A stretch of DNA of 22,433 nucleotides from Baffinella frigidus (Eukaryota > Cryptophyceae > Cryptomonadales > Baffinellaceae), in contig MU646750.1 in the NCBI GenBank assembly GCA_026770585.1, forward strand, positions 176,747-199,179, in the 5' to 3' direction. Numbering within the stretch: position 1 is the first letter of the stretch; every line of letters starts with the position of its first letter. Under the pieces are notes generated by a model, which worked only from the letters and a program-made list of their open reading frames with translations, did not search any database and was not told the DNA's origin. Position numbers and translations under genes: made by a program. Shown here piece after piece: positions 728 to 22,433 of the stretch.

Positions 728-774
728 ACTGCGCCTTCGCCGCGCTGAAGGACGGGTTGATCTCCATGACCCTC
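728..774 (+). pseudogene. partial copy of the HORMA exon (echo)
   Basis: About 45 bases match 1316-1362 inside the main HORMA exon (the part encoding GAFAALKDGFISMIL) with a few substitutions. The copy lies about 590 bp upstream of the intact exon, has no open flanks, and ends in unrelated sequence. It is a decayed fragment and not a separate gene. Confidence 0.8.
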
Positions 775-831
775 AGATTTTTGGAACCCACAGAACCAAG
801 GACTGCCCACGTTTGCCGCCGCCCCCGTAGC

Positions 832-1637
832 ATGTCCCCCTCCACGCAGATGCAGGCGGTCAAGCCCACGGCCATCACGCACAAGATGAGCCTTGGCGTC
901 ACGCTGTGAGCCTCGGCCAGTCAGGTAGCGAGCCTCGATCAAAAACGCTGAACCTGATCCGCGCGTTGTTCTCCGAGCTCTGCTTAGGGTTTAGGGATTA
1001 GGATTTAGGGTTTAGGTTTTTGGGTTTGCGCAACATCTTTGCACATCGCGCAACATCTTTGATGCCAAGTACTTCAAGGAGCAGACGGTAAACCCTGCCT
1101 GGCCCCCGCTAGCCCCCATTTCCTCCATGTCTAGCACTCCCAACCCACTACGCCCCGCCCGGTGCCCGTGCGCAGCCCCTCGGTGGATGAACGTTCGCAC
1201 CAGTGCCTGACAACCTGCCGGGCACCACACCACAGTTTGGCGGCCAGAACTGCCACGGTCTCATCAAGGACACCGACAACAAGGACGTCGACACCGTGCT
1301 ATCCTGGCTCGAGGAAGGCGCCTTCGCCGCGCTCAAGGACGGGTTCATCTCCATGATCCTCTTCGGGGTCTACACCGACGAGGAGGACCCTACCAACCTG
1401 CGCGAGGCGTGGTATTTCCGGGTGTCGGACTGCGGCAACAACCTCCAAGTCTCGCGTGGGGAGGAAGACGGCACGCCGAGCGAGACGAGCCCGTCCTGGA
1501 TCAACGGGTTCAACAAGGGCTCCTCCTTGGTGGGGCAGAACACGGACGAGGTCACGAAGCTCTCCTCCAACTTCATCCGCACCGTCGTGGCCCTCAACTC
1601 CGCCCTCGACGACCTCCCGGAGGTGCTGCCCTCACAC
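832..1637 (+). CDS. HORMA-domain protein (Hop1/HORMAD-like), partial and frame-disrupted
   Basis: HORMA proteins of this type sit on meiotic chromosome axes and control crossover formation. Proposed exons are 832-905, 929-988, 1016-1087 and 1236-1637. The last is the most secure. It encodes DVDTVLSWLEEG, then FISMILFGVYTDEEDPTNL, then REAWYFRVSDCG, and later a helix with NFIRTVVALNSALDDLPEVL. This is the order expected for the HORMA core: the helix, the VYTDPEDP-like loop, the strand, and the helix before the safety-belt region. Exon 2 gives SKTLNLIRALFSELC, the first HORMA helix. The spacing to RNIFDAKYFKEQT fits the family if 20 duplicated bases at 1028-1067 are ignored; as written they shift the frame. 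The start ATG at 832 is tentative. The safety-belt strand (usually an LFY-type motif) and the rest of the protein are not found, and a CT microsatellite follows. It may be a pseudogene, a truncated copy, or a gene hit by an assembly error. If exon 4 is not spliced at 1637, it stays open to a stop at 1815-1817. Confidence 0.72.
989..1015 (+). other. 27-nt putative intron made only of telomere-like repeat
   Basis: Between two HORMA coding pieces lies GTTTAGGGATTAGG... ending ATTTAGGGTTTAG, which starts with GT and ends with AG. Removing it joins GG to G as a glycine codon and gives the spacing expected between the first helix and the NIF motif. The TTTAGGG unit contains both a G|GT donor and a TTTAG|G acceptor. 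Intron status is inferred, and 27 nt is very short. Confidence 0.4.
1028..1067 (+). repeat. 20-bp imperfect tandem duplication in the HORMA exon
   Basis: GCGCAACATCTTTG occurs at 1028 and again at 1048, making a 20-bp unit. The duplication shifts the frame by two between the first-helix exon and DAKYFKEQT. A similar short direct repeat, GAGCCTCG, flanks the proposed 906-928 intron. Both resemble small versions of the exon-edge duplications seen elsewhere in the window. Confidence 0.8.
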
Positions 1638-1822: not shown

Positions 1823-1854
1823 CGCTCTCTCTCTCTCTCTCTCTCTCTCGCTCG

Positions 1855-1887
<33 letters not shown>

Positions 1888-2049: not shown

Positions 2050-5000
2050 TCACGCGGCCCCGGCGGTGTGCTTGAGCAGGGAAAGCGTCCCAATCAGCCT
2101 GTTTTGGAGTTTAGGGTTTAGGACGTGTGCGCAGCATCGGTCAGCGCGTTAATTAATTAATTATTCAACTAATCAATTAATTAATTAATTGTTAATTAAT
2201 TAATTAGCAGCCTCAAACCGGCGTCTCCTCACAGGACAATGCGCCCGAAACAAACAGGGTCCGCATCGTGGCTTTACGCGTGGTGTTGCGTTTGATCGCA
2301 CACATTCGTGAGTGGGCTCTTCCGGCTCTTCTTCACCCCTCCGATCCTCTTACTTCTCTCAGCTTCGGGGGGGTGAGGAGACGGGCCCTAGGACGGGCCC
2401 GCCTCGGGCAGAGAGAAGTCATGTACGTAGACATTACTCAGGGGGGGGGGGGAGGACACCGCAGGGCTTAGGAATCCCTCAAGTGGCCAGCTGGTCGAAA
2501 ACGACCCGCAGAGGTCCTAGGCAGGTCCTACGGCCCTACGGTAGGGCGTATGCGCCTACTCGCCACTTGAGGGATAGGCCTACTGTAGGGTCCTAGGGGG
2601 GTGGGCGGAGAGGTACCCGGAGAGTTGGAGGAGGGAGTGCGTGCAGTCAAGGATGCGCATGAGGAGCCGCGCCCCCACCTAGGGACAACCGTTGGGCTAC
2701 ACAGGTACATGCCTACCGTAGGATACGGTAGGCCTATACTTAAGGTAGGCCTATCCCTTAAGTGACCAGTAGGCTCATACGCCCTACCGTAGGGCCCTAG
2801 GACCTGCCTAGGGCTTCCACGGGCGATTATTCGCCCGTTGGTCACTTAAGGGATACATACGGTAGGCCTACTGTATGATCCCATGGGGGCTGGAGGGGTA
2901 CCCCGAGAGTTGGAGGAGGGAGTCTGTGCCGTCAAGGATGCGCATGTGCACCGTGCCCAGAACCTGTGTACATCATTACAGGGGTTACTCGAAATCAATA
3001 AAACACACCGCCATGGGACCCTACGGGGGTTATTCGCGAACAAGGACACGGTGCACCGTGCCCAAAACCTGTGTACAGGGGTCACTCGCGAGGAGGGACG
3101 CGCACCGCCATAGGGTCCTACAGTAGGGCGGGTCCTAGGAGCATAGGACCACTCTAGGGGCGGTGCGTGCCCAGCACTTGCGTACATTACAGGGTTAACT
3201 CGCTCATAAGGAGCCGCACCCCCCTAGGACCCTACCGTAGGCCTATACCTAGGGCCATACGGTGGTCCCTAGGCCCCAAAGCAGACGGATTTGTACCGCA
3301 CGCCCAGCATGCCCACTTGAGAATAGTCGGCCGGCGATGGTCGGTATTTGAAAAACGGTACATGTACAAGGATGTAGACCAAACGGCTCCAAGAACGAGA
3401 GTGAGACAGAGCTAGGAGATAGCGCCCACCCTCTAGGCCTAGGGTCCTACAGGGTCCTACATACCCTGTAGGACCCTAGGCGGTATCCGTAGGAACAACC
3501 CTACGTCCCTACGGATCGCCTACCGTAGGGCCATAGGGCTTATCCACTCATGAGTTATGCACGAAATCCCTGGGTAGCCCTTGCTCGCGAGTTCTTCGCG
3601 TTCCTGATTAGATTTAATTTCAGATTTAGCTTGGCTTTTGAGCCATTTCGTACTTTTAGGGCTTTAAAATCGCTGGGTTTGTACCATAAGTCTTTTAGAT
3701 GGACAGTTCCCGAAATGAAATCTAGCCAGGTCCGGGACTGGCGTGGCGGGGGCATACTTTTAGGGCTTTAAAATCACTGGGTTTGTACCATAAGTCTTTT
3801 AGATGGACAGTTCCCGAAATTAAATCTAGCCAGGTCCGGGACTGGCGTGGCGGGAGACCTGGAGGAAGTCGAGTTTTGTCTTCTCGGGCATCTCCATCGA
3901 CCGCGTCACCCGCGAGAGTGTCTGGTTTAGGGTGTAGGGCGTGGGGTTTAGGGTTTAGGGTTTAGGGTTTAGGGTTTAGGGTTTAGGGTTTAGGGTGTAG
4001 TGTTGACTGTTCACTGTTTGGGGTTTGGGGTTTGGGATTTGGGATTTGGGGGTTGGGGGTTGAGGTGTGGGGTTCGGGGGGGAGGGGTTGGGGGTTGGGG
4101 TTTGGAGTTTGGGATTTGGGGTTGGGGGTTTGGGATTTAGGATTTAGGGTTTAGGGTTCGGGGTTCAGGGTTCAGGGTTTAGGGTTTAGGGTTTAGGGTT
4201 GAGGGTTTGGGGTTTAGGGTTTAGGGTGTAGTTTTGACTGTTGACTGTAGGGTTTGGGGTTTGGGATTTGGGTTTGGGGTTTTGGGGTGTGGGTTTAGGG
4301 TTTTGGGTTTTGGGTTTTGGGTTTTGGGTTCTGGGTTCTGGGTTCTGGGATTAGGGTCAGGGTTCAGGGCTCAGGGTTCAGGTTTTAGACTTCAGGGTTT
4401 AGGGTTTAGGGTTTAGGGTTTAGGGTTTAGACTTCAGGGTCTAGGGTTTGGACTTCAGGGTGTAGGGTTCAGGGTCGAAAGAGGGGCTCGCAACCTGGAT
4501 GATATCCTGGGTGGAGTAGCCCTTGGCCCAGCGCGCCGGGTTGGCGGACTTTTCTTAAGTTGACATGCTGGGTCTGCGGTACAAATGTGTCAACTTTGGA
4601 GCGAAACCGCAGAGGGGGCTCGCAACCTGGATGATATCCTGGGCGGAGTAGCCCTTGGCCCAGAGCTCCTCGAGCCGTTGGTGCGCCTCGTGCACTTCAC
4701 CCGCCTGCTCTCGGGGTTTCGGGATAAGGGGTTCCCCACGAGCGCCCCGTGCACGTCCCCCGCCTAAAAAAAAAATCCATTCAGTCTTATCCACGTATCC
4801 GAGCGTGCGATAAATCACTCGACGAATCGGACCACACCCACCATCGTGCACCTCCCGCCTGATATTGTTTCGGAACATCACTGGCACCTCGTGCGCCTCC
4901 CCCGCCTGGGGTGGGTTTGCGAGGAGTAATTTAAATACTCGCGCCCTAGGGAATCGGAGTCTTTCCTTCTGAAATTAGGCTAACGATTCGAGTTCCCTAT

Positions 5001-8000
5001 GGGCGGATGCATTGGTGCGCTTCGTGCACGTCCCCCGCCTGAGTCCGGGGTTTGCCATCTTAGCCTAACCATAGAGCGCTGTGCAGAGAAGTTGGCCACC
5101 GGAAAATGGGAAAATGAGGGAATTGGAGCCATTTTTCACTTTTGAGAAATTCATGGTACTAAATTTCTCAAAAGTCGACAAAATGGCTCCAATTTCTCAA
5201 TTTTGTATTATTTCCCGTGGCCAACTTCTCTGCACAGCGCTCTAGCTGCACCACGGCACACCACCCAGCATAGCACACACGCGGTTCAAACCGCACCAGT
5301 GTGCAGACGGGATCGCATACGGAAGGGCGGCGCACCATGCAACGCCGCACGATGCCCATAGCTGACTATTCTCAAGTCGACATGCTGGGGTTGCGGTACA
5401 CGTTACCAAATCGGTGAGCCCAGATAGACCGAGCCAGAGCTGGAAGGTTGGCAGCGCACCATGCAACGCCGCACAACGTCCATCGCTTTCAACACACGCC
5501 AGGTCGCCAGTAAGAAGAGACAGGTTCACAACGCGACGCGACGAAAGATTCAGAACCCTCTCTCTCTCTGGGTTGAGGTGGGCAGCGCACCATGCAACTC
5601 CGGACGATGTCCATGGCTTTCTTCGGGTGCGGCTGGTCACACACCTGCGAACAACCCACGCCAGGTCACAAATCAGGAATTAAGGTTGACCCCCCCCCCA
5701 AAAAAGTGTTTCCTGGTACACATGAAACATTGAAAATCGAAGACTTCTTCGGGTGCGGCTGCTCGCACCCCTGCGCACAACCCACGCCAGGTCACACACA
5801 CGACAATTTCATCTTGGACTATACCAGAATCTGTCCTGAAAAAGGCGTATGATAGCATCATTTGATGCCTAAAATAGCATATACACCCTCACCTTCCGCG
5901 TGGGGAGCCTAAGATAGCGGGACAGATTCTGTCTTGGTCCGAAATTAAATTGAAGGTTGAGCCCCCCCCCAAAAAAAATGTACACAGGAAACATCGTTGC
6001 GCATGGCAATGGCTCGAATTACGGGCTTTAAAAAACCTGAGATTCTTCGGGCGAGGCTGGTCGCACACTTGCAAACAACCCACGCCAGGTAACAAATCAG
6101 GAATTCACGTTATCAGGAATTAAGATCCAGAATTAAGGAATTAATCAAGAATTAACGAATTAAGGAGGCCCCCCCTAATCAGGAATTAAGGAATTGAGGA
6201 GGCCTCCTCCTTTTAAAAGCATTTCCTGAAACACACGCAGCATTGTCGCGCATGGCAATGGCTCCAATTACGGGCTTTTGGCGTGTTTGCTGGGGGGGGG
6301 ATCTGAGACTTCTTCGGGTGCGGCTGATCGCAAACCGTGCAAACAACCCAGTTCACACCTGAGAATTTTCCTAAAGCCGATTCTCCGGATTTGCCCCCCA
6401 GATTTGTATCATGAGCATGCCAAAAGCGAAACGCCCGCGCCGCAACAGCGTCGAGTTCGTACCACGAACCAGGAGTGGACAACGCTCTAATCAGCCAACA
6501 GTCGTACGTGGATGGGCCTAAATAATGAACCTTTGTTATTTTTTTTTACCCAAATGAAAAAAAAAAATGCCAAACCAATAAATCAATGAAACACATTCAT
6601 GCCGAATCAATAAATTGATGGCATTAATTTATTGACTTGGCATATAATAGATGTACAGATGGAGAAGGGGGCGCACCTTGAAGACGCTGACCTGGTCGAC
6701 CAGGTCAAACCCCGCGGCCGTGCTCTGCAGCGCGTTGATCGCCTGCGAAAGGGTTAGTGTTTAGGGTTTAGGGTTCAAGGTTTATGGTTCATGGTTTGGG
6801 GTTTGGGGGTCGGGGTTTAAGGGTTGGGGTTCAGGGTTGAGGGTTTAGGGTTTCGGGGGTAGGGTTTAGGGTTTAGGGTGTGGGGTTTAGGGTGCAGAGC
6901 TCTGCAGCGCGTTGATTGCCTGCCACACAGGTTATGGTTTAGGTTGACCAACCCCGACAGTGTGAGAGTGCATTGTCAAACCTAGAGGAACGTGACCAAC
7001 CCCGCCGCCGTGCTCTGCAGTGCGTTGATCGCCTTTGGAATAGGGTTTGGGGTTTAGGGGTTGGGGTTTGGGGTTTGGGGTTTGGGGTTTGGGATTTAGG
7101 GGTTGGGGTTTAGGGTTTAGGGTTTAGGGGTTGGGGATTAGGGTTTAGGGGTTGGGGTTTAGGGTTTAGGGTTTAGGGGTTGGGGTTCAGGGTTTAGGGT
7201 TTAGGGGTTGGGGTTTAGGGTTTAGGGTTTGGGGTTTACGGGTTGGGGTTGATCGCTTGCCACACAGGTTATGGTTGAGGTTGACTAACCCCGACAGTCT
7301 TGCCCGCCAAAAGCAATGAATTAATACTTTTGTGGAAATGATATTGGTTCACGACTCTACGCACGACGGTTGACTAACCCGGGCGGGCTTGTCCGTGGAA
7401 AATGACTGATCCGCGCAGGGGTTGTACCAGGAACAGGTGGAGTTCGTCGAAAGTGGTGGGCCGCGTACCCTGCGTCAAAAGTGGTGGGTCTGCTAGCTCT
7501 GTCTCAGTCGGGTTGACTGGTCGTTTTTGCACCAAACGTTGACGAATTTGTACCACACAACAGGGGAATCAACTTCCGGTCTCCCCATTTTGAGGTGACT
7601 GGGTTAACTCAGGCAGAGCTGGGGGATAGAGTGTTGTAGCGTTTGGGGTTGGAGTGTAGAAGCGTTAGGGGTTAGCATGTATTAGCGTCAGGGGATGGCG
7701 TGTGGTAGCGTTAGGGCTCGTACGTAACCTGGCGAAGGTCAAAAGTGGTGTGCCTAGTTAAGTCAACATTTGGCGGAAGTGGTGGGACTCGTAACCTGGC
7801 GGAGATCGCCGTCAGCCGTGAAGATGATAGCCTCCAGCCCGTCCATCGTGTACTTGATCTGCCACCAAAAGTTGACTCAGCGCCGAATGTTGACTCGGCG
7901 CCAAATGTTGACTCAGCGCCGAATGTTGAATCGGCGCCAAATGTTAAGTGGGCGCCGAATGTTGACAACCTAAACCCTCAACCCTAAATACTTTTTTCCG

Positions 8001-11000
8001 CCCACAAAGGGCAACGCCCACAAAGGGCAACGGGCAGCGTTGAGACCGCTCGTCGACCATCTGGTTGGACTGCACCACTTCGTCTGTCGCGTGTTTGATC
8101 GTCCCCGGCTCGTGCACGTCGGGGAGGGACCAGACGCCTGGGAAGCCCCCCGCAGGGGTCGACCGGGATTCGGGTCGCGCAGCAAGCTCCCCGCAGGGGC
8201 CGCCGGAGGCTCGTTAGGTCCTCCTCTAGTGGCTTGCCTCGCCTTGAAAGGCCCTTACGACGGCGTGCCTCCACTTTCGCTCGTCATACAGATGTGCTCG
8301 TCGTGGGAAATGTGCCCCCCACACCCCTCGTTCGGTCACACACGCGCCACGCAAGCAAGCCAGGAGCCCCTAAACCCTAAACCCTAACCCCCAAACCCTA
8401 AACCCTAAACCCCAAACCCTAAACCCTAACCCCCAAACCCTAAACCCTAACCCCCAAACCCTAAACCCTAACCCCCAAACCCTAAACCCTAACCCCCAAA
8501 CCCTAAACCCTAAACCCCAAACCCTAAACCCTAACCCCCAAACCCTAAACCCTAGCACCTCCTTCTTCGCCTGCACATGACCCACGACACCCTAAACCCC
8601 TCAACCATCAGCCCTTAACTCTAACCCCTAACTCCTAAACCCTAAAACCTAACCCTTAAACCCTCAACCCTAAACAATCAACCCTAACACCTCCTCCTGG
8701 GCGCAGATGTCCTGCAGCCGCCAAACTCTAAACTCTAAGCCCTAAACCCTAAACCCTAAACCCTAAACCCTAAACCCTAAACTCTAAACCCTAATCCCTA
8801 AACCCCCAACACCCAACCCTAAACCCTACTCCCTAAACCCTCAACCTTAAACTTTGAACCCTAAAGCCTAAACCCTAAACGTGCTCAAGTTCAAGGCTCC
8901 GGGTTTTGTGTTTCGTGTTTCGTATTTCGTGTTCCAGGTTCCGGGCTTCGGGTTTCGGATTTCGGATTTCGGGTTCCGGGTTCCGGGTTCCAGGTTTCGG
9001 GTTCCGGGTTCCGAATTTCGGGTTTCGGGTTTCGGGGTGAGCAACTCCTCCTTCTTGCAGATATCCTCCAGCTGCTAAACCCAAAACCCGAAACCCGAAA
9101 CCCTGAACGTGCTCCGGTTAGGGATTCCGGGTTTCGGGTTTCGGGTTTCGGGTTCCGGGTTTCGGGTTTCGGGTTTCGGGGTGAGTACCTCCTCCTTCTT
9201 GCAGATATCCTCCAGCCGCTCCAACAGCTCTGCGTCCTGCAGCCGCGTGAACCTGAAAACGATGACGGAATTAGGTTGACGCCGGACTGTCTGCGCGTGA
9301 ACCTACCGCGAGCGCTCCCAACCCAGTTCCACAAAGCGTCAAATTTGACGTTTCGCAAAACGTCAAATTTGACGTGCTCCGCGTCCGAGAACCCACCAAC
9401 CATGCCGGAATTCGGTTGACGGCCGGAATTAGGTCGTCCACCCAAACAGTTGACATTTGTCTGACAGAAAGACTAGTGGGCGCGTGAACCTGCCCCCGCG
9501 AACGCTCCCAACTCAGTTTCTCAAAAGCGTCAAATTTGTCCTGGCCCCGCGAGAACCCCAATGCTGGAATTATGTTGACGCCGGAATTAGGAAGGACACC
9601 CGTACGACGGTTGACTGAACCTTTCAGGTTTCGTTCGTGGGTGGTGAATAAACGAGGCATAGTTAGCACCGGGATAGGCTCTGATTAGTCAACCCTTACC
9701 GGAGGATGGCGTAGCGTGACTGGGTCGGCTAGGTTGACGCCCTACCCTAATATTCCCCGATAGCGTACCAGACGGGAGAAGTTTTGTACCAGGAAAGGCG
9801 GGTATAATAGGTTTGTGCGGTGGATTTGGCGTGGGGCGTGGCCGGCAGGCGCGGGGCTTGCTAGCTCTGTCCTAGTAAATTTGGGCTCGCCATTATTCCC
9901 CCCCCCCCCCGAAATTTCACAGGTGAATTTTGGCAACCCCCCCATGAAATTTACCTGTAAAATTTCGGGGGGGGGGGCGAAATAATGGCGAGCCCAAATT
10001 GAAGTGTGACAGAGTTAGGCGTACCGGAGGATGGCGCAACGCGACTGGATCGGCTCGATGATCTCCGAGGAGTTGTTGCACGCCAGCGCGAACCTGATTT
10101 CGGGTTTCGGGTTTGGGTTTCGGGATCTCAGTTCCCAGATTCGGGATTCCGGGATCTGGGTTTCGGGTTTCGGGTTTCGGGATCCGGGTTCCCGGGTTCG
10201 GGATTCGGGATTCAGGATTCGGGATTCGGGTGTCGGGTTTCGGGTTCCGGGTTTCACTTATGAGGACCTACCTATGTATCGAGGCGGGCTCGTATTAAGG
10301 TTCATAGACTTTTGGATCACTCATCTCTAGCTTTGAAAGTAATAAAGACGAAGAAGAAGAAGGTTTCGGGTTTCGGGATTCGGGATTCGGGTTCCGGGTT
10401 TCGGGTTCCGGGTTCCGGATTCCAGGTTCCGGGATCCGGGTTCCAGGCTTCGGGTTTCGAGATTCGGGCTTCGGGTTCCGGTTTCCAGGTTCCGGGTTCC
10501 GGGTTTCAGAACTCGGGTTTCGGTTTCCGGGTTTCGGGTTTCGGGGTTCGGGGTTAACCGCATGGCGTTCGAGTAGAGCTCCATGGTCCGCCGCATCGCT
10601 TGCTGCGCCGTCCCTTTCACCCCCCGCAACCAGCCCTCCACCCCGCCCCCCCCCCAAGTTCCGGGTTCCGGGTTTCGGGTTCCGGGTTCCGGGTTTCGGT
10701 TCCGGGCTTCGGGTTTGCGGGTTGCGGGTTGCGGGCTTCGAACTTCGGGCTTCGGGCTTCGGGTTTCGGGTTCCGGGTTTCGGGTTTCGGGGTGCGGGGT
10801 TAACCGCGTGGTGTTCGAGTAGAGCTCCATGGTCCGCCGCATCGCTTGCTGCGCCGCCGTCGTCATGCTGTGCAGGGCTTAGGGTTTAGGGGTTGAAGTT
10901 TAGGGGTTGGGATTTAGGGTTTGGGGTTTAGGGTTTAGGGTTTAGGGTTTAGGGTTCAGGGATCAGGGCTCAGGGTACAGGGTTTAGGGTTTAGGGTACA

Positions 11001-11736
11001 GGGTACAGGGTTGAGGGTTCTGTGGTTAGGGTTTATGGTTTATGGTTTATGGTTTATGGTTTATGGTTCAGGGTTCAGGGTTCAAGGTTCAGGGCTCAGG
11101 GTACAGGGTTAAGGGTGAAGGGTTCTGTAGTTAGGTTTGATGGTTTATGTTTCATGATTCAGGGTTTATGGTTCAGGGTTCAGGGTTCATGGTTCAGGAT
11201 TCAAGGCTCATGTTTCAGGGTTTAGCGTTCAGGTGGAGACCTGTCGGCCTCGTCAAGGATGACGATCTTGTGCTTGCCTTGCGGCAGGGTCACCTGCCAC
11301 GCCACACTCCGTCACCACTCCTGCTTTACAGGATCTCTGACCCTCTCTCTCTCTCTCTCCCTCTCCCTCTCTCTCCCTCTCTCGCTCTCTCTCTCGATCT
11401 CTGTCGCTCTCTCTGTCGCTCCCTCTCTCTCTCGCGCGCGCTCTCTCGGCCTCATCGAGAATGACGATCGTGTGCTTCCCGGGCGGCAGGGTCACCTGCC
11501 ACGCCACACTCCGTCACCACTCCTGCTTTACAGCATCTCTGCCCGTCTCTCTCTCTCTCTCTCTCTCTCGCTCTCTCTCTCGATCTTATCCGGGGAAACC
11601 CATTTTTCTTTCATTTGATGGCAACGAAAATTACTACACAAATGCTTCAATATTACTAATAAGAACGAATTGTGTAGTAATTTTCGTTGCCATCAAATGA
11701 AAGAAAAATAGGTTTCCCCGGATAAGATCTCTGTCG

Positions 11737-11769: not shown

Positions 11770-11938
11770 GCGCGCGCTCTCTCGGCCTCGTCGAGGATGA
11801 CGATCGTGTGCTTCTCGGGCGGCAGCGTCACCTGCCACGCCACACACTCTCCGTCATCACCCCTGTTTGCTTTACAGGATCTCTCTGTCTCTCTCTCGCT
11901 CTCTCTCTTTCTCTCTCTCACACACACACACACTCTCG

Positions 11939-13247: not shown

Positions 13248-16200
13248 ATGGTGTGTCGCGGGCGGGCGGGGAGCATGTTTGGACGCGCAGCATTTTACTT
13301 GCTGGTAGCCGCGGCTTTCCTGGCGGAGATTCCGGGGGGACGCGTCGGGGGGCAGTATTTCCTCTACGCGTCGCTTGACTACAAGCAGACGGGGATCACC
13401 ACGACGGGGATCACCGTGCTGTTCACGCTCAAGACGGCGTGGAAGCGCTCCTTCTTCGACAAGAGCGAGGGCCATGAACCGTACGGCCCGTGCAACCCGT
13501 GCAGCAGCGATGGCATCACCAACGCCGAGAAGCAGGAGTGCTCGGACATCTGCCTCACGCCGCCCTGCTCGTGCCTCCTCACCCTTCCAGGAGACGAGGT
13601 CCCTGCTCGTCCCTGGCACCCCCCGCAACCAGCCCTCCACCCTTATCCGGGGAAACCTATTTTTCTTTCATTTGATGGCAATCAAAATTACTACACAGAT
13701 TCTTTTACATTACTAATAAGAACGAATTGTGTAGTAATTTTCGTTGCCAACAAATGAAAGAAAAATAGGTTTCCCCGGATAAACCCCGCCACTGGCGTAT
13801 TTTTATGGGTTAGAGCCCTCCACCCAGCCACTGAATCTAACCCATAAAAATACGCCACTTGAGAGGATGGCGTATTTTTCACCCAGCCCTCCCAAGTGGC
13901 GTATTTTGATGGGTTGGATTCCCCGGATTTGTACGGGGTGGGGTATCGCCGCACGGCATCCCCGTTACAAATCCCCCTACCTTGAAAACGACCACACCCC
14001 TTCACTTCGGAGGGCGAATCGATCCTTGCTAACCCAGAGCGTGGCAAGCTGGGCCATCCTTGCAACACGGACAACCTAGCCCGTTACGCGCTTTGTTTTG
14101 AAGGAACGTTTGGCCGCGCACCCCTCTGCTCTTACACCTCCGTGTTGGTAGTGATAAATGTCTCTCTCTCCACTCGGGTGGGCTACGAGGGTTTCGTTGG
14201 CCCCGGATTCCGGGGTGTTACATGACCAATCTGCATCAGAAAAATCCTTCAAGTTAATTGTCTTCAGGTAAGATGACTTTTGATGAAAGGTTCGTAGTCC
14301 ACCGTGTGGTAGACCGTGTTGGTAGTAATCAAAGTCTCTCACTTAGGCCGCGTTGGTACCATTACAGGTATCTCTCTTTCCCAACACAGTCCACCCTTAA
14401 AACCTAACGCTTAAAACCTACACCTTAAACCCCAGGTGTACATCTTCGACCCGCGTGATTTCGACACAGCGACCGGGACGCGTCCGCCCGTGCCCGTCTC
14501 GACGACCTTCTCCTTCGGGGAGAACCCTGACGACTCACTCAAAGGCGCGTACTCCCATCGCCCCCCCCGACAATTTTTATCTCATATTCAGGGCGGCGTT
14601 GGAGCCATTTTGTGTATTTCGGGCGTGAATTCCCTTCGTTTTGTACCGGAAATCGTTTAGATGGACGGATACTGAGACCACGTTTAGTGGGTTCGATCAA
14701 GCGGCCGGGACGCGTCCGCCCGTCCCCGTCTCGACGACTTTCTCCTTCGGGGAGAACCCCGACGACTCGCTCAAAGGCGCGTTCTCCCACCAACCACCAG
14801 AAGAGAACCACAACTAGATGGACGCGATTTTTCGATTTCGGACGACCCTACGGTAGCAAACCGGTAGGGACCTAGGGTTTTCCTACAAGGGCGAATAAAG
14901 GGACCTAGGGGTTCCCTACGAGGGCGAGTAGATGGACACTAAAGACTGAGTGACTAAAGGCCTCTCCTTCGGCGAGAACCCCGACGACTCGCTTAAAGGC
15001 GCGTACTCCCACCCACGCGACGACAGCCTGCACCTCAAATCGACAGTGGACTAACTCGGCTTGGCTCTCTAATCAGTACTTATCCGCGGCCGGATTCCGT
15101 CGTCTTTGTACCAGGAATAATAGAAAGACGCAGTCGATTTGAGGTGCGGGGTATCGTCGCGTGTTCTCCTTTGGGGAGAACCCTGACGACTCGCTCAAAG
15201 GCGAGTACTCCCACCCTTGGTCGGATAGCGATGGGGCAAATGGATCTTTTCACTGCAGGTACACATTCAAAAATCGTTACCAGTCGCGTCCAGTGTGTAC
15301 TGGGCTAGACTGCCCAAATTGAACTCTAGACAGAAGTTGCCCGATCCATTTGCCCCCTCGCTATCCAACCAAGGCTCTGTCTCAATCTATTTCGTATCAC
15401 CGATTTGGTGGTTTGGTGAGCCCAGGCTCTTTCCCGCTCCAACGTTGACGTGGCTGTTCCGCACACCCAGCATGTCAACTTTCGAATAGTCGGTCAACAA
15501 GGCTGAGGCAGACCTAGGCAGACCTGGCGGAAGTCAAGAATCTAATCCCGCAGAGTTTTCAAGTTGGATATCTAGCAACGAAAATTACTACACAATTGGT
15601 CCATACAAGTAATTGTAAAATCAATTGTGTAGTAATTTTCGTTGCCAGATCGTTTTCAACTTGAATATGAAAGTCCGGATGAAATTGATTCCTGGCGGCA
15701 GGGCGTACGTACCACACGAGAATGCTAGAGGGGCCTATTTAAAAGTGAGTTGTAACATTTGTGTAGTAACTTTCGTGAAATTGGTCACGTAACTGTGCGA
15801 AATTAGCACAGTCACGAGGTTAGAATACCCTATCCTGGTGCAAATGTTTACAACCCCACATGTAAATAGGTTCCTCCAGCATTCTCGAGCGGACCCCCAC
15901 TCAGCAGCGGCGCACCTGTTTCTTCATCTCCTCGACCATTTCCTCCACCTGCATTTAGGGCTTAGGGTTTAGGGCTCAGGGTTCAGGGTTCAGGGGTTTA
16001 GAGTTTAGGGTGGTATCCTCGGGACTCCCCCGTGCGACTGACGAGAAACCTTGTCAACAAATCTCTCGCTACTATCAACCAAGGTCTGTTGGTACTAACC
16101 ACCACGTAGCAGCCACCGGAGGCTTCACGGATACAGCCCATCCAAACGATTTGTACTAGAATCTTATCCATTTGCATTGGATTCTAACCGCATTTCTCCC

Positions 16201-16647: not shown

Positions 16648-19600
16648 ACCCTTAACCCTCAACCCTCAACCCTCAACCCTCAACCCAGGGCGGCGGTCCG
16701 ACCAAGGGAATGCGTACCGGCCCTTCTGCCTCGATACCGTCCCCCCCTCGTGCATTAAGGGCCGTGTCGTCGACTCGCGCCCTAACGCGACCGCGGCGTC
16801 ACCACTATGGGAGGAGAACGCTGCCGCGGTTCACCCCCCCCCTCCCCCTTCCCGTCTAGCCTCGAGACGTTTTTTTTTTAGGGATTAAACTTCTGTGGCA
16901 GGAAGTACAGGACCGCACACATGGGTGCAGACCCTGGCTCTTGAGTTTCAATGCCTGTTTCGGGGGGGGGGCGGGTGGTGTACGTGGTCTCGGAGTTACA
17001 CTACACGTACCCGAAGTCCAGCGTCCAGATTGGTTCGGTAGTGGTGTAGGGAGTAGGGTGCACGATGTCAGGAAGGTGCACGATGCAACAGAGGGGGTGG
17101 GAACAATCACGCGGAAGAACAAAGCCTCGACGCGAGGTGGTGTGTGTGGTGTCACCACCAAGAAAGAACAGGAAATATCCGGTGTCTCAACGCGCATGTG
17201 TGTGGGGGGGCAGGTGGTGTATGTGGTCTCGGAGTTCCACTACACGTACCCGAAGTCGACAGCCACCTACGTGGCTGGCTTCCAAGGTGACCCCCCCCCC
17301 CCCTCTCCCCCAAAGCCTACACCCTCCATGGGTAAAGGCGATTTCCCTCCCTACACCGTAAACCGTAAATTCTGAACCCTAACCCCTAAACCCTAAACCC
17401 TAAACCCTAACTTACGTGGCTGGTTTCCAAGGTGCCCCCCCCCCCCCCCCCCCCAAACCCTAAAACTTTAGGGTTTAGAGTTCGGACCAACACATGTACC
17501 CGAAGTCGACAGCCACCTACGTGGCTGGCTTCCAAGGTGCGTAACCCCCCAGTTAGAACCGAAGTTAAACCCCCACTTAGAACCGAAGTTTAACCCCCAC
17601 TTAGAACCTAAACCCCCACTTAGAGCCCGAAGTCAACCGCCACCTACGTGGCTGGCTTCCAAGGTGCCCTCCCCCGAAACCCTAAACCCTAAAACTTTAG
17701 GGTCAGGGTGTAAAACCCTAAACCCAACACCCTCAAACTTTAGGGTTAGATTTAGGACCCTAAACCCTGAACCCTAAACCCTAAACCTTAAGGGTCAGGG
17801 TGTATAACCCTAAACCCTTAGTATTTTAAACCCCAACCCCTCAACCCTCAACCCTCAACCCTCAACCTTAATCCCTAAACCCTTAACTCTATACCCGAAA
17901 CCCTACCCTGTCAACCCTAAACCCTAAACCCTAATCCGTAACCCCTAAACCCTAAACACTACCCACCAACCCAGGATGCTGCCGGCTCCCGGGGGGGGGG
18001 GGGGGAGCAAAGGCCTGCGCCACAACGCCAAAGCCCCCCGAAACCCCAAACCCTCAACCCTAACCACCAGCCGGAATGGTGGGTACGGTTCACAGATTAG
18101 GGGTGAAGGTTTCCTGAGCCTGAAAGGGTTATTCACCGTCAACCGTACCCACCACCCCTGCACGCCCAGGGGTACTGACAGCTCCCCCCGGGGGGGGGGG
18201 CACAGGCCTGCGCAACAACGCTAACGGCGCCCGAAAGCCTCAACCCTAAACCCTACACCCTAAACCCTAAACCCTCCGAAAATCAGGGTGCTGCCGGCTG
18301 CCGGGGGGTGACAAGGGGCTGCGCAACAATGCTAACGCCCCCGTATGCCTAAACCCTAAACCCTAAACCCTAAAACCTAAACCCCTGCAAAAGGGTGCTG
18401 CCGGCTGCCAGGAGGGGACAAGGGGCTTATCAACAATCAAAACGGCGCCCAAAACCCCAAACCCCAAACCATAAACCATAAACCCTAAATGCTCCCGGCT
18501 GCCGGGGGGGGGCAAGGGGCGGCTCCGCAACAACGCCAAACGCCCCCCCGAAACCCGAAATCCGAAACCCTAAACCGTTCACCATCCCAGGGTGCTGCCG
18601 GCTGCCGGGGGGGGACAAGGGGCTGCGCAACAACCAAAACGGCGCGTGGGATGTCAAGGTCAAGGTCGCCGTCACGGACAGCCAGGCGGTACCACCACCA
18701 CCCTCCACGCCAGATTCTTGGAAGGGGTCGCCGAAAGTCGATTCTCCTGAAGGAATAAAAGGGAATTATTTACTTTTGGGATAGTTCGGCGCCCCAAAGT
18801 GCGCTCGGAAAGAGCCGAACCCCCACGAGGAATCTGGCGTGGTGTGTCGTGGGGCGTTGGGGTTAAGGTCGCCGTCACGGACAGCCATCCGGTACCACGA
18901 CCCACCTGATCTGCCGAGACCTCCTGAACCATTGCCTCGAGGAGACCTCCTGAACCATTGCCTCGAGCACAGTGTCCATTACAGTGTCCATTACCTCCCG
19001 TCAAGTCCTCGAGGGTTTGGTTCAGGAGACATGAAGAGACGTGAAGGTCAAGGTCGCCGTCACAGACAGCCAGCCGGTACCACCACCACCCTGCCGTCCT
19101 CATCTCAGATATCTGAAAGAGCGTATTAATTGATGCCTTTCCGCCAACGAAAATTTCTACGCGATTGGATCATACTAGTAATAGAAGAGCGTGGGATGTC
19201 AAGGTCAAGGTCGCCGTCACGGACAGCCAGCCGGTACCAGCTAAATCTGAAACCCCAAACCCCGAACCCTAAACCCCAAACCCTGAACCCGAAACCCCAA
19301 ACCCCAAACGGTAACACCACCACCCTGCCACCCCAAACGCGGCAGATCAAACGTTGCATGATCAAAAATGCTCCGCCCGTGATTCGCTGACGTGATGAAT
19401 TCACCGTAAGGGTGCTACAGGAGCGTCTCGATGTGATACTCAGGCTGACCCAGCCGCAGAACAGGCCGGAGGTATATGTAACGTTAGATTTGGTAGGGGT
19501 GTCCACATGCTCCGCCCGTCAGCGAATCAGCCTGGGTATCTCATCAAGACGCTCCTGTAGCACCCTTACGGTGAATCCATCACATCACATGTGATACTCA

Positions 19601-21425
19601 CGCTGGCTCGCTGACGGGCGGAGCATGGGGACACCCCTATCACATCTAACGTTACACATACCTCCGGCCTGTTCTGCGGCGTGTACGCAGATGGTTCAGT
19701 CAACCCTGTCCATTTCAGGCAACTTCCCTGCTCGTGCGCAGATGGTTGAGTCAACTCTCCGGCTCGTGCGCAGATTTATGGTCGGTTTAGTCAACTCTCC
19801 GGCGTGTTCGCAGATTTTCCAGACGGGGACCGCCGACGCGCCCTTCCTGAGCCACATTCCGATCACGGCTGTGATCAAGGGGCGCCCGCTCTCCTTCAAG
19901 CTCCACGCAACCGACGCCGCGGGCCGCCCAATCACGTTCACGGTATCTATCTCGTGGCAGTCTATTTGGAGTCACCAATCTGCTTCCCCCGGGCACTTTC
20001 CCGCTCCAAAGTTGACGGGGTTGTACCGGACACCCAGGATGTCAACTTGAGGATAGTCGGTCCACCTGAGTGAGGCAGACGATCGGACGCCGCGGGCCGC
20101 CCGATCACCTTCACGGTCACCACTAGCCCTTGGAAGTGGCTCAAATAGTGGTCTGGAATATTTTTAATTTACCTTGACAGACCCCCGATCTGGGGGGGGG
20201 TGCAACAAAACGGACGCTGCGGGCCGCCCGATCACCTTTACGGTATGTGAGTGTGCGGGGCGACTCAATTTAAACCGCCTTTTATGCTATCTTAAGGGTG
20301 GTGACTCTCTTATTTTGCTATGTTAGCCTCGACATAGCTTTTGCATTCAACCATTTCAGTCAACTTGTGTAGTGATTTTGTGAAATCAATGAAATTTACT
20401 ACAAAAGTTGTCTGAAATGGTTGAATGCTTTCCTGTTTTTCGAGATCCGAATCGTGTCAACTATTGAGGGACCCGCTCTACTAGCTCTTGGAAGTGGCTC
20501 AAATAGTGGTCTGGAACATTTTTAATTTACCTTGACAGACCCCCCGATCTGGGGGGGGGTGCAACAAAAGTTGACGCATTTTCGGCGCAAAAATTAACTT
20601 TTGAAAAATAGTTCCAGAGCACAATTTGAGCCACCTTCCAGGGCTAGTGGAAGGGTGGACGCACCCTACTGTATTGCATTCCGGTGTACCCTACCGAATG
20701 CTGGGAATAGGTTGATCTCAGACTTACGTGATCACGTTCACTGTATCTAGCTCTGCCTCACTCCGGTTCACTGGCGGGCTATTCCCAAGTTGACGTGCTG
20801 GGTTCGCGGTACAAATCCGTCAACTTTGGAGCGGGGGAAGAGCCCGAGTTCACCAGATTGGTGAGCCCAAATAGACCGAGACAGGGCGAGCCCGAATCAG
20901 ACTGCGACAGAGCTAGGGTAGGGTATCTCGGTATCTAGCTCGTCGTATCTCGGTATCTAGCTCGTCTATTTGGGCGAAGCGATTTGGCGGGCCTGGGCGC
21001 TTTCGAGCGGGAAACCTGTTTAGTGTTGTAATCTTACCCTACGTGAGTGCTACTTCCCTACTTGGTTAGGTGGGAGACGACCACGGGGCGGGCCTCTCGC
21101 AGAGCAACGCACCTTGCAGCTGTACATACACACTATTTCAGGATAGTGATGACACAACTATCCTGAATTTAGGCCGTTGCCCTAATAATAAATTACTAAA
21201 TTTATCAATAAATTACTAAATTTATTAGGAATTCAAGATTTATTTCGTCAAACGGCATGCTAACTATCCTACGTGCGGGCTTGACTGGACACAGGTGGGA
21301 GACAACACCGACCACGGGGTAGGCCTCTCGCAGAGCAACGCCCCGGAGCCGCTTTCCACACCATTTCCTAACACACACACACACACACACACACACGCAC
21401 GCACACACGCACACACACACACACA

Positions 21426-21465
<40 letters not shown>

Positions 21466-22433
21466 ACTAACAGTCGGCACCCCGGGCAGGGTAGTTCCCA
21501 CACGGCACGCTAACAACCCTACGTGAGTGCTAACTTCCCTACTTGGTTCGGTGGGCGACAACAACGACCACGGGGTAGGCCTCTCCCAGAGCAACGCCCC
21601 TTGCAGCTGTACACACACACTATCTCAGGATGGTTATGGCATATCTTTCATGATAGTTATGACACATCGATCCTGATTTCAGGCCATTGCCCTATTGATA
21701 CGGCATGCTAACTATCCTGCGTGCGTGCTTGACTGGACACAGGTGGGCGACAACGACGACCACGGGGTGGGCCTCTCCCAGAGCAACGCGCCGGGCAGCT
21801 TGACACACACTATTTCAGGATAGTTCTGACATACCTATCCTGAATCTTGGCCGTTACCCTACCAATAAATTACTAAATTTATTAATAATTAAATATTTAT
21901 GTCTTAATACGGCATGCTGACTACCCTACGTGTGCGTGGATAGGTGGGCGACAACAACGACCATGGGGTGGGCCTCTCCCAGAGCAACGCGCCGGAGCCG
22001 CACGGGAACAACATGGCTGCCAGCGTCGACCCTGCTACCGGTATCACGCCAGGGCCGAAGTGGGATTTTCATACACACTTCGCAATAGATGGCTTATCCT
22101 GGTACACATTCTTAACAACATGGCTGCTAGCGTCGATCCTGCTACAGGTCCAAAGCTCACAACCCGAAAACCCGTAAAGGGCTCATAACCCGAAAAATCG
22201 CGTCGATCCCGCCACCGGTCCTCCCACGCCAGATTGCTCGAGGGGGTTCGGCTCTTTCCGAGCGCACTTTTGGGCGCTGAACTATCCCACAAGTAAACAA
22301 TTTCCTCTTATTCCTTCCGGGGGGTTCACTTTTGGCGACCCCTTCTGAGAATCTGGCGTGGTCATCTTCCCTGCTCGGTGCTTTACTGTGAACGGCGCTT
22401 TACTGTGAATGTAACCCCCCCCCCCCCCCCCCC
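13248..22433 (+). CDS. secreted surface/adhesion-type protein, 5' part, seven exons visible
   Basis: The product is unrecognised as a named gene. Its start resembles a signal peptide: from ATG 13275, MFGRAAFYLLVAAAFLAEIP (an in-frame ATG at 13248 adds nine residues). Proposed exons: 13248-13598, 14436-14548, 16689-16828 (less sure), 17214-17286, 18591-18688, 19814-19942, 21944-22040. Exon 1 encodes YFLYASLDYKQTG and a Cys cluster (CNPC, ECSDIC, PPCSC). Exon 2 encodes VYIFDPRDF ... TTFSFGENPDDSLKG. Exon 4 encodes VVYVVSEFHYTYP ... VAGFQ. Exon 5 encodes GCCRLPGG ... AWDVKVKVAVTDSQ. Exon 6 encodes PITAVIKGRPLSFKLHATDA. Exon 7 encodes VGDNNDHGVGLSQSNAP ... SVDPATG. The GxPLSFKLxATDAxGRPITF and GLS..P...SVDPATG motifs resemble extracellular cadherin-like/Ig-like beta-sandwich repeats, and the CCR segment recalls protist surface proteins. 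Phases agree at all junctions except exon 2 to 3, which is off by one base. The gene runs past the window end. Confidence 0.75.
13643..13782. mobile_element. 140-bp foldback MITE, TTATCCGGGG family, copy 2
   Basis: Same length, ends and interior as 11586-11725, with few differences. Flanked by ACCC on both sides, supporting a 4-bp target-site duplication. It lies in the first intron of the surface-protein gene. Confidence 0.93.
13794..13919. repeat. hairpin cluster, GGCGTATTTTTATGGGTTAGA
   Basis: A 20-bp arm at 13794 pairs with its complement ending at 13856. Two further partial arms occur at about 13869 and 13905. From 13920 to 14395 I see only short repeats (GTGTTGGTAGT near 14143 and 14318) and no gene. 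Confidence 0.85.
14701..15214 (+). pseudogene. three downstream echoes of surface-protein exon 2, 3' part
   Basis: The true exon is 14436-14548. Copies at 14701-14790, 14961-15013 and 15164-15214 repeat FSFGENPDDSLKGA(Y/F)SH. The first also includes GTRPPVPVSTT. None has the VYIFDPRDF start. The second echo ends where a foldback (15014-15163) begins; the third starts where that foldback ends and is followed at once by another foldback (15215-15374). Confidence 0.9.
15014..15163. mobile_element. 150-bp foldback between two exon 2 echoes
   Basis: Arms CACGCGACGACAGCCTGCAC and TCAAATCGAC pair with GTCGATTTGAGGTGCGGGGT and CGTCGCGTG at the other end. An exon 2 echo abuts each side. Confidence 0.87.
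15215..15374. mobile_element. 160-bp foldback after the last exon 2 echo
   Basis: Arms CCTTGGTCGGATAGCGATGG and GGCAAATGGATC pair with GATCCATTTGCCCCCTCGCT and ATCCAACCAAGG. No coding content. It directly follows the echo at 15164-15214. Confidence 0.88.
15373..15505. mobile_element. CTAGCTCTGTC-family member, degenerate
   Basis: Contains GGCTCTGTCTCAATCTATTT, GGTGAGCCCAG, CCGCACACCCAGCATGTCAA and GAATAGTCGG, all family core motifs shared with 20747-20916 and 3270-3415. The ends are poorly preserved. Confidence 0.6.
15554..15670. mobile_element. foldback related to the TTATCCGGGG MITE core
   Basis: GCAACGAAAATTACTACACA and its complement are the same inner arms as in the 140-bp MITEs, but the outer ends differ (TTTTCAAGTTG). 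A diverged relative or a different deletion derivative. Confidence 0.75.
15916..15948 (-). other. orphan 33-nt exon-like segment, VEEMVEEMKKQ
   Basis: On the minus strand: CCCTAAATGCAG, then eleven codons for VEEMVEEMKKQ, then GTGCGC. The acceptor side carries CCCTAAA, as at confirmed RFC2 exons, and the donor matches RFC2 exon 9 and 10 donors. It lies antisense in intron 2 of the surface-protein gene and matches no RFC2 segment. It could be an echo of an exon outside the window or chance. Confidence 0.35.
16010..16580. other. intron stretch without recognised gene
   Basis: Part of the long intron before exon 3 of the surface-protein gene. It holds short palindromes (GTCGAATTCGAC near 16410) and copies of the CTGGCGG(T/C)AGGGCG motif that also precedes exon 3. 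The small minus-strand open frame at 16156-16350 has no recognisable content. Confidence 0.6.
16584..16685. repeat. homogeneous CCCTCAA array
   Basis: Fourteen or so nearly perfect CCCTCAA units, a one-base variant of the telomere-like heptamer, ending at the CCCAG acceptor of proposed exon 3. Its uniformity contrasts with the decayed CCCTAAA arrays nearby. Confidence 0.95.
16975..17662 (+). pseudogene. echoes of surface-protein exon 4 on both sides
   Basis: The true exon is 17214-17286. Upstream, 16975-17023 repeats its 5' part (VVYVVSELHYTYPKSS) but lacks TYVAGFQ. Downstream, 17413-17431, 17490-17536 and 17625-17662 repeat only its 3' part (STATYVAGFQ|GTG or less). A 24-bp tandem repeat (ACCCCCACTTAGAACCGAAG) lies between the last two. 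Confidence 0.9.
17375..18585. repeat. CCCTAAA heptamer blocks in surface-protein intron 4
   Basis: Several blocks (about 17375-17410, 17680-17960, 18238-18275, 18350-18385, 18450-18490) of C-rich heptamers on the plus, i.e. sense, strand. They alternate with exon 5 echoes and with poly-C/poly-G runs of 8 to 18 bases. Confidence 0.9.
17975..18545 (+). pseudogene. five upstream echoes of surface-protein exon 5, 5' part
   Basis: The true exon is 18591-18688. Copies start near 17975, 18170, 18287, 18394 and 18489. Each has the G-rich CCRLPGG(D)KGLRNNA segment, and most keep the CAG acceptor. All stop at the NNAN(G)A region and lack WDVKVKVAVTDSQ. Poly-G length varies among copies. Confidence 0.9.
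18705..18842. mobile_element. 138-bp MITE, CCACGCCAGATTC family, copy 1
   Basis: Ends CCACGCCAGATTC and GAATCTGGCGTGG. The interior includes GGTCGCCGAAAG, GGGAATTATTTACTTTTGGG and GAAAGAGCCGAACCC. It starts 16 bases after the donor of exon 5 and is followed by an exon 5 echo. Confidence 0.92.
18850..19233 (+). pseudogene. three downstream echoes of surface-protein exon 5, 3' part
   Basis: Copies at about 18850-18891, 19041-19077 and 19189-19233 repeat (WDVK)VKVAVTDS(Q/H)P followed by GTACCA. None has the CCRLPGG start. The third preserves AWDVKVKVAVTDSQ fully. The middle segment (18915-19030) holds a duplicated GAGACCTCCTGAACCATTGC and a complementary copy. Confidence 0.9.
19391..19680. repeat. 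interlocked inverted repeats in order B-A-B'-A'
   Basis: Segment B (about 19391-19447, with ACCGTAAGGGTGCTACAGGA) is complementary to 19527-19588. Segment A (about 19453-19526, with GGCCGGAGGTATATGTAACG) is complementary to 19610-19680. Arms are roughly 60 to 75 bp and closely matched. The order means both hairpins cannot form as simple nested stems. Mobile-element origin is likely but unproven. Confidence 0.88.
19681..20242 (+). pseudogene. echoes of surface-protein exon 6 on both sides
   Basis: The true exon is 19814-19942. Upstream, three copies of the acceptor edge (CTCGTGCGCAGATGGTT-like, near 19690, 19738 and 19771) precede the real TTCGCAG|ATTTTC. Downstream, 20084-20115 and 20210-20242 repeat TDAAGRPITFT|GT, and a remnant is at 20728-20743. 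The downstream copies lack the TADAPFLSHIP start. Confidence 0.88.
20123..20210. mobile_element. truncated CTAGC-CTTGGAAGTGG element between exon 6 echoes
   Basis: Matches the left half of the full element at 20481-20647 (CTAGC(C/T)CTTGGAAGTGGC ... TGCAACAAAA) and stops at the first base of an exon 6 echo (CGGACGCTGCGGGCC). Confidence 0.88.
20343..20428. mobile_element. 86-bp foldback
   Basis: GCATTCAACCATTTCAG and its complement CTGAAATGGTTGAATGC are the outer arms. The inner arms include CAACTTGTGTAGTGATTTTG, related to the ACTACACAA core of the 140-bp MITEs. Confidence 0.87.
20481..20647. mobile_element. 167-bp foldback, CTAGCTCTTGGAAGTGG family, full copy
   Basis: Left end CTAGCTCTTGGAAGTGGCTC; right end GAGCCACCTTCCAGGGCTAG. 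Inner arms include GTGGTCTGGAAC and GTTCCAGAGCAC. The left half is duplicated at 20123-20210. Confidence 0.9.
20747..20916. mobile_element. 170-bp CTAGCTCTGTC-family element, best-preserved copy
   Basis: Starts CTAGCTCTGCCTCACTCCGG, ends CTGCGACAGAGCTAG. The core has GTTGACGTGCTGGGTTCGCG, GTCAACTTTGGAGCGGG and GGTGAGCCCAAATAGACCGA. It begins directly after a remnant of the exon 6 edge. Confidence 0.85.
21070..21943 (+). repeat. tandem units carrying four upstream echoes of surface-protein exon 7
   Basis: Units of about 190 to 260 bp start near 21070, 21295, 21551 and 21743. Each begins with the 5' part of exon 7 (VGD(NN)DHG(V/A)GLSQSNAP), continues with an imperfect hairpin (TATTTCAGGATAG / CTATCCTGAA), AT-rich sequence and GGCATGCTAACTA(T/C)CCTACGTG, and ends at an acceptor. 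The complete exon is the fifth copy (21944-22040). The second unit also contains a CA/CT microsatellite (21371-21461). Confidence 0.92.
22117..22225 (+). pseudogene. two downstream echoes of surface-protein exon 7, 3' part
   Basis: At 22117-22149 the sequence repeats NMAASVDPAT with a GTCC donor, and at about 22198-22217 it repeats ASVDPAT (GTCGATCCCGCCACCG|GTCC). Both lack GDNNDHGVGLSQ. A MITE follows immediately. Confidence 0.87.
22224..22361. mobile_element. 138-bp MITE, CCACGCCAGATTC family, copy 2 (inverted)
   Basis: The same element as 18705-18842 in opposite orientation, with identical length and conserved interior (GTTCGGCTCTTTCCGAGCGC). It directly follows an exon 7 echo, as copy 1 directly precedes an exon 5 echo. 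Confidence 0.92.
22415..22433. repeat. terminal poly-C run
   Basis: The window ends in an unbroken run of C. Similar poly-C or poly-G runs occur at many points inside. This may mark a contig edge or low-quality homopolymer; it is not a telomere. Confidence 0.8.

Follow-up and report, generated by a model that had tools for sequence, protein, structure and literature searches.

Partial exon copies and short insertions in the introns of the cryptophyte Baffinella frigidus

Results

The window, i.e., the whole stretch of 22,433 nucleotides that was analysed (assembly GCA_026770585.1 of Baffinella frigidus, contig MU646750.1, positions 176,747 to 199,179), carries RFC2 on the minus strand and, on the plus strand, a HORMA gene, whose identity was upheld (PF02301, 1.4e-16), and a further gene in which no Pfam family scored above its curated cut-off. 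Masked self-BLAST of the window (E<=1e-3) yielded 61 direct repeat pairs less than 2.5 kb apart, as compared to none in each of 10 first-order Markov shuffles. The partial exon copies that the initial annotation had described in neighbouring introns are therefore real.

Twelve RFC2 exons were placed, the gene's last part being left out; all have GT donors and the 11 after the start exon have AG acceptors. Joined together, the outermost exon copies encode a gap-free protein over 288 residues, which indirectly favours the proposed use of the first donor and the last acceptor in the mRNA. Strong partial copies, 15 in total, accompany seven of the 12 placed exons:

11241..11293, minus strand: complete exon 4; acceptor-spanning copies 11448-11533 and 11785-11879
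10805..10867, minus strand: complete exon 5; donor-spanning copy 10553-10610
10025..10093, minus strand: complete exon 6; donor-spanning copy 9697-9730
9189..9252, minus strand: complete exon 7; donor copy 9037-9076, acceptor copy 9538-9585
6677..6742, minus strand: complete exon 9; acceptor copies 6899-6923 and 6998-7034
5591..5644, minus strand: complete exon 10; acceptor copies 5745-5796, 6043-6105 and 6310-6350, donor copies 5445-5490 and 5325-5363
4627..4704, minus strand: complete exon 11; donor copy 4483-4537, acceptor copy 5012-5053

Echoes had been proposed for exons 4 to 11 and 13, which holds for exons 4, 5, 6, 7, 9, 10, and 11. Exon 8 gave only a weak match, of score 29 against a threshold of about 28, that lies almost wholly in the exon's flank, and the proposed exon 13, read by eye only, fits a repeated stretch (2575-2674/2863-2958). 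Exon 12 matched by its flank only, and no partial copies of exons 1, 2, and 3 were found when the 12 placed exons were queried. In a conservative permutation test restricted to RFC2, nine of 12 repeat families touched an exon (null mean 4.5, P 0.008); the three that did not comprise one dispersed element and two families that by coordinate lie beside the acceptor copies of exons 7 and 9.

In the second plus-strand gene, masked self-BLAST resolved seven repeat clusters between 14460 and 22149. Without a Pfam family in this gene, its exon boundaries are defined largely by these repeats and have no homology support. Individual stretches are as follows:

14460..15216, plus strand: one exon end, present four times (14460-14557, 14692-14789, 14963-15014, 15164-15215)
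15013..15163, no strand assigned: element f (about 150 bp, 31-bp terminal inverted repeats), which sits exactly between two of the four copies above
18644..19239, plus strand: copies (18644-18704, 18848-18902, 19038-19092, 19189-19239), with element j (18705-18842) between the first two
19909..20246, plus strand: one exon end in three copies; both spacers contain a dispersed element
21036..22001, plus strand: chain of longer units, each repeating the exon copy as well as the spacer, which amounts to a larger tandem duplication

The spacers among the four copies at 14460-15216 are mutually dissimilar, and the second spacer of 19909..20246 holds half of a longer palindromic element found at 20477-20651.

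The HORMA gene, which had been listed as a probable further case, shows a different type of repeat. Positions 731-774 are a copy of 1318-1361 and sit upstream of the first exon, outside any neighbouring intron. The first exon itself is interrupted:

801..1090, plus strand: first exon of HORMA, continuous in the paralogue at L005 and divided here by a 44-bp insert and a 59-bp insert with telomere-type repeats

This single paralogue comparison, an uninterrupted exon versus two inserts, documents insertion of telomere-type repeats into coding DNA together with a 14-15 bp duplication, which lies on one side with a 5-bp spacer and does not cleanly flank the insert.

Across the sampled loci, copy-insert-copy is the unit that recurs; the initial annotation did not mention that each duplication encloses an insert. 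Duplications have a median length of 50 bp (5-95% range 26-105 bp) and a median copy identity of 88.6%, i.e., copies differ by about 10%. More than 10 bp separate the copies in 340 of 352 adjacent pairs and 10 bp or less in the other 12, spacers of 101-200 bp being the commonest class. The inserts comprise arrays of telomere type, fragments of dispersed repeats, in some cases complete elements with terminal inverted repeats, and unclassified DNA: among 296 spacers, 70 were arrays, 28 were dispersed repeats matched end to end, 86 were partly dispersed, and 112 were of other content. Of 208 spacers in the non-array, non-end class, 145 were unrepeated outside their pair and 63 were repeated elsewhere. 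Terminal inverted repeats were present at 11 of 124 spacers versus 17 of 620 controls. In chains, the echo nearest the exon was the youngest in six of seven cases, ties included, an ordering too weak to rely on.

The stretch occupied by element f has at least 26 other matching places among the matches listed. At six of 23 other sites, f is bracketed by repeats of 42-89 bp that are of unrelated sequence, and complete f elements stand between copies several times, as does one complete j in the window. Full-length copies nevertheless mostly have 2-bp target duplications (f 12/20, j 15/28), and long target duplications of constant length are not a property of these elements, given the 42 to 89 bp range at f. 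Among 29 other j copies, none was flanked on both sides by a long repeat at a distance of up to 15 bp; the j copy in L050 has a repeat 4 and 31 bp away that is itself a dispersed element. An f in L018 bears its own 2-bp TT duplication inside the spacer. In L036, a truncated and a full f alternate with exon copies.

The extent of the phenomenon was surveyed in five conserved genes, RFC2 and four CCT genes, with a total of 40 exons located by homology. Partial copies, 32 in total, were found at 18 of these exons, so that the earlier wording "nearly every exon" overstates the case outside the window. Exon-only queries recovered direct copies at 17 of 40 exons and inverted copies at none; with 20-bp flanks, the counts were 21 and two. 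A splice junction was spanned by 29 of the 32 copies. All 29 lie on the matching intron side, and by coordinates the complete exon is the outermost copy in every one of them. The suggestion that the process lengthens introns is also supported. Near direct repeats occurred in all 73 loci examined (L010-L082, some overlapping and not a random sample). Together with exon-edge copies in the four CCT genes on other contigs, this bears out the proposed genome-wide process.

The view that splice-site regions are what the process itself duplicates was not supported. Duplications without an annotated exon partner were detected in 32 of 200 intron control segments, some of which may be two echoes of one exon.

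Discussion

We favour, with moderate confidence, the explanation that each echo represents half of a direct duplication of about 25-100 bp that was formed together with a short insertion, most often of 100-200 bp, through fill-in of a staggered break and capture of filler DNA; the molecular cause is inferred from the pattern. Small tandem duplications are described to arise from fill-in of protruding ends (PMC8355091). Briefly, a double-strand break with widely staggered ends would start the event, and fill-in of both ends would double the overhang. Stray DNA, such as telomere-type or CT repeats, pieces of dispersed elements or sometimes a complete element with terminal inverted repeats, could be trapped between the ends. 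Where the doubled stretch lies across a splice junction, the outer copy would preserve the exon, and the inner copy and the insert would become intron; a doubling wholly within an exon would break the gene and be lost. Repeated events at one edge would give rise to copy chains and longer introns.

Fill-in implies direct adjacent duplications, and with exon-only queries the exon copies are direct at 17 of 40 exons and inverted at none. Combined with filler capture, it also implies unrelated DNA between the copies, which is seen in the 340 of 352 pairs with a spacer, in their mixed content, and in the 145 of 208 spacers that are unrepeated outside their pair. The mixed filler, the wide spread of duplication lengths, the position of all 29 junction-spanning echoes on the matching intron side, and the occurrence of f between unrelated 42-89 bp repeats speak for this model, as does the telomere-type insertion in HORMA coding DNA with its 14-15 bp duplication. 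Observations of the opposite sign are the 63 of 208 spacers repeated outside their pair, the one-sidedness of that HORMA duplication, the copy at 731-774, which is not part of a copy-insert-copy unit, the f in L018, whose TT duplication would fit ordinary insertion into an existing spacer, and the weakness of the nearest-is-youngest ordering.

Exon edges are probably conspicuous since only junction-spanning copies keep the gene working and such pairs stay recognisable longer. An exon and its echo should remain recognisable for roughly twice the time of two neutral copies, and selection would remove doublings confined to exons, which we take as the reason why the surviving exon copies span a junction. 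Since both effects would intervene in the comparison of 18 of 40 exons with 32 of 200 intron controls, we did not adopt targeting of the process to exon edges.

One alternative is transposition with an exceptionally long target duplication, in which small elements with terminal inverted repeats integrate close to exon edges, the integration step as such producing a duplication of 30-100 bp. The positions of f and j exactly between exon-edge copies in the window, the further, several times complete, f elements elsewhere, and the commonest spacer class of 101-200 bp, which is the size of such elements, would agree with this. However, f and j otherwise have 2-bp target duplications, none of the 29 other j copies has a long repeat close by on both sides, and terminal inverted repeats are found at few spacers, which weakens a pure transposon account. 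In addition, duplication lengths are widely spread and arrays show the same pattern, and we regard transposition as unlikely.

A comparably improbable explanation is ordinary tandem duplication, through slippage or unequal exchange, of an exon edge together with the intron next to it, the copies later diverging or receiving an insertion. The stretches 21036-22001 and 3651-3854 in the window are such cases, the alternation of truncated and full f with exon copies in L036 is compatible with it, and the 63 of 208 spacers repeated outside their pair indicate that larger tandem duplication contributes. Yet only 12 of 352 adjacent pairs are separated by 10 bp or less, 145 of 208 spacers are unrepeated outside the pair, and the four copies at 14460-15216 have dissimilar spacers.

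It is doubtful, to a high degree, that breaks in introns were instead repaired with a piece copied from the nearest exon edge as template. Repair by copying nearby DNA is known in vertebrates, splice-site duplication included (PMC2671141), and the HORMA copy at 731-774, possibly a single case, fits it better than fill-in. Such repair should, however, leave inverted and misplaced copies, whereas inverted copies were found at none of 40 exons with exon-only queries and at two with flanks. Copies free in place and orientation are not what we observe, as all 29 junction-spanning echoes lie on the matching intron side, which argues against random local copying; it would also leave unexplained those inserts in which a dispersed element exactly fills the space between the copies. 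An assembly artefact, for which nothing was found in favour apart from noting one N run in L079, is barely conceivable because the copies differ by about 10% and are separated by dissimilar dispersed repeats, the pattern recurs at all 73 loci examined, and the outermost RFC2 exons give a gap-free protein.

Returning to staggered breaks and filler, it is tempting to propose, although we consider it rather doubtful, that one insertion process operating throughout the genome, with a target duplication of some 50 bp, drew on any short DNA available (telomere-type repeats, elements, fragments) and is responsible for much of the intron length in this lineage. To our knowledge, such a target duplication is several times longer than that of any known transposon. 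If this proposal were true, introns growing at exon edges would represent the tolerated remains of a single unusual machinery of breakage or integration, perhaps tied to telomere-type repair. Intron growth is usually inferred from transposon content. Here, single growth steps are readable, as each leaves an exon-edge copy that can be compared with the functional edge, which makes event rate, filler source, and duplication length measurable in one genome. The pattern is also a warning for gene finders, with truncated look-alikes near 18 of 40 exons, most of them including a splice site.

Filler DNA between direct duplications, or telomeric repeats at repaired breaks, is shared with several systems: insertions with partial tandem duplications in rice, which have been ascribed to patch-mediated break repair, direct repeats at new introns in Daphnia, and telomere-repeat insertion at breaks in mammals. 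We know of no case of comparable density or of exon-edge copy chains, and among the papers listed by searches of the open-licence literature, no title or abstract describes chains of partial exon copies in introns.

Introners, as presented by Gozashti et al. 2022 (PMC9860276), are likewise short elements with terminal inverted repeats whose target duplications shape protist introns, with splice sites within the duplicated target. However, they have 3-9 bp target duplications, occur as similar sequences that form whole introns, and create new introns, whereas in B. frigidus mixed inserts lie inside existing introns, which grow, and the median duplication is 50 bp. Fill-in by CST-guided Pol alpha-primase at breaks with 3' overhangs leads to small tandem duplications (Schimmel et al. 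2021, PMC8355091). There, too, the stretch between staggered cuts is directly duplicated after fill-in and end joining; unlike in that system, the copies described here are parted by inserts, many of them telomere-type, and the events are old and accumulated. Vertebrate repair-mediated duplication, which captures proximal DNA (Pace et al. 2009, PMC2671141), also leaves short local copies near their source, exons and splice sites included, from break repair. It accounts for about 1,000 events in the human genome, as compared to about two near pairs per kilobase in our sampled loci, and differs from the present pattern, in which copies at exons are exclusively direct with exon-only queries and an insert lies between source and copy. 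Overall, the pattern in B. frigidus resembles known break-repair duplication in an unusually heavy form.

Results

We placed 12 exons of RFC2 on the minus strand of the window (contig C441, 176747-199179, of a 382-Mb assembly in 1,364 contigs), the 3' end of the gene lying outside the placed set. All 12 exons have a GT donor, and the 11 that follow the start exon have an AG acceptor. The joined translation (292 residues) matches an RFC subunit 2 (PDB 6vvo_B, residues 30-317) over residues 4-291 (E 7.1e-116); the outermost complete exon copies therefore yield a continuous protein. The identity of the HORMA gene was confirmed by Pfam, and a Pfam search with the long plus-strand gene returned no family exceeding the cut-off.

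The partial exon copies that the initial annotation had reported in neighbouring introns (echoes) are real: once simple and telomere-type arrays, which make up 25% of the window, had been masked, self-BLAST gave 61 direct pairs less than 2.5 kb apart, as compared to none in ten shuffles. Its proposal that the pattern extends beyond the window also stands, with near direct pairs in 73 of 73 other loci (L010-L082, a partly overlapping, non-random sample picked through repeats or CCT matches) and echoes across 40 exons of five genes. In 236 kb (62 loci and the window) we counted 488 pairs with a median length of 50 bp, gap of 232 bp and identity of 88.6%.

The five genes were RFC2, CCT1 (L079, another contig) and three further CCT-type genes, parts of which (L080-L082) were found, like CCT1, by tblastn with human CCT1; exon borders in L079-L082 are approximate. 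Queried with 20-bp flanks, 21 of the 40 exons exceeded the 99.5th percentile of 800 shuffled queries, three of them matching wholly or almost wholly through the flank, and a stricter listing holds 32 echoes in 18 exons. The acceptor is spanned by 18 echoes, the donor by 11 and neither by three; by coordinates, the 29 echoes with a junction are all located to the intron side of it. Exon-only queries found direct copies for 17 exons and inverted copies for none, flanked queries for 21 and two, respectively.

The recurring unit is copy-insert-copy. Gaps between the two copies of an adjacent pair were most commonly 101-200 bp (117 of 352 pairs) and 10 bp or less in 12. For the 296 adjacent pairs whose gap measures 40-700 bp, filler was classified by two different rules. 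The first gave 74 array inserts, 14 at a locus end, 145 not repeated outside the pair and 63 repeated outside; the second, whose comparison covered only about 0.06% of the genome, gave 70 arrays, 28 inserts that a dispersed repeat matches end to end, 86 partly dispersed and 112 others. The duplicated segments were themselves dispersed repeats in 61 pairs. A 104-bp tandem duplication at window 3651-3854 lacks an insert and, at 98% identity, represents a recent case of plain tandem duplication.

Some inserts are short dispersed elements with terminal inverted repeats, f and j:

Window 15013-15163: element f, the clearest case, between copies 14963-15014 and 15164-15215
L011, L018, L023, L031, L032, L036: other loci with f between 42-89 bp repeats

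These flanking repeats, of unrelated sequence, occur at 6 of 23 other f copies examined. L032 and L036 hold a second f copy, and f is truncated at L031 and in one L036 copy. Otherwise f and j have 2-bp duplications (12/20 and 15/28, respectively). In 29 other copies of j, no long repeat flanks the element on the two sides at a distance of 15 bp or less. Terminal inverted repeats were present at just 11 of 124 spacers (controls, 17 of 620), so most inserts are not complete elements of this type. Two copies of another such element, starting TTATCCGGGG (window 11586-11726 and 13643-13782), have 4-bp target duplications (GATC and ACCC, read by eye), i.e., ordinary insertion.

The first HORMA exon is unbroken in paralogue L005 and split by two inserts in the window copy, which may no longer be functional. 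The first insert (44 bp) has ACGCTG at either end; the second (59 bp) consists of TTTAGGG-type repeats and ends in a second copy of the adjoining 14-15 bp. Telomere-type repeats thus entered coding DNA with a short duplication, though without the clean flanking form. L005 and L004 (C491:325993-331801) are inverted HORMA copies separated by about 2 kb, and the identity of either to the window copy is 81%.

Across seven gene stretches (window genes and L079-L082), telomere-type units are C-rich on the sense strand (521 sense, 138 antisense). CCCTAAA lacks AG and GT, and TTTAGGG contains both; selection against stray splice sites is therefore a possible cause. A 500-bp telomere-type array in RFC2 (window 8368-8880) is G-rich on the sense strand, opposite to this bias.

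Discussion

To the initial annotation the pattern looked like a process that enlarges introns by repeated duplication of splice-site regions; targeting to splice sites is neither needed nor shown. At the exon threshold, 81 of 200 intron control segments had a local copy. The best partner of 49 was an annotated exon, and these are therefore themselves echoes; that of the other 32 was not, so duplications arise inside introns too, although some of the 32 may pair two echoes derived from a single exon. Detection would be favoured at exon edges, as a within-exon duplication would destroy the gene unless a splice junction was included, and an exon and its echo would diverge through the echo alone. 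In the larger sample (181 segments, 905 controls), duplicated unique segments are coding-like in GC content (0.617 vs 0.528) and 3-periodicity (0.320 vs 0.212), and AGGTR occurs on either strand in 49 segments vs 151 controls (P 0.001).

We judge repair of widely staggered breaks, with fill-in and captured filler, to be the best account of the echoes. Copies are in direct orientation, in the positions described, with inserts of mixed filler between them; a break with widely staggered ends would have preceded them, fill-in would have doubled the overhang, and filler DNA would have been captured between the doubled copies. Larger tandem duplication certainly contributes, as at window 21036-22001, and explains part of the data. 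Transposition with a long target duplication and proximal capture, i.e., copying of nearby DNA, also account for a part each. One case that staggered-break repair leaves unexplained is at window 731-774, where 44 bp from the interior of the HORMA exon (1318-1361) are copied upstream of the first exon.

In the portions considered here of three studies, which do not describe such density at exon edges, there are near parallels: vertebrate repair-mediated duplications (PMC2671141), duplications left by CST- and Pol alpha-primase-guided fill-in (PMC8355091), and introners (PMC9860276).
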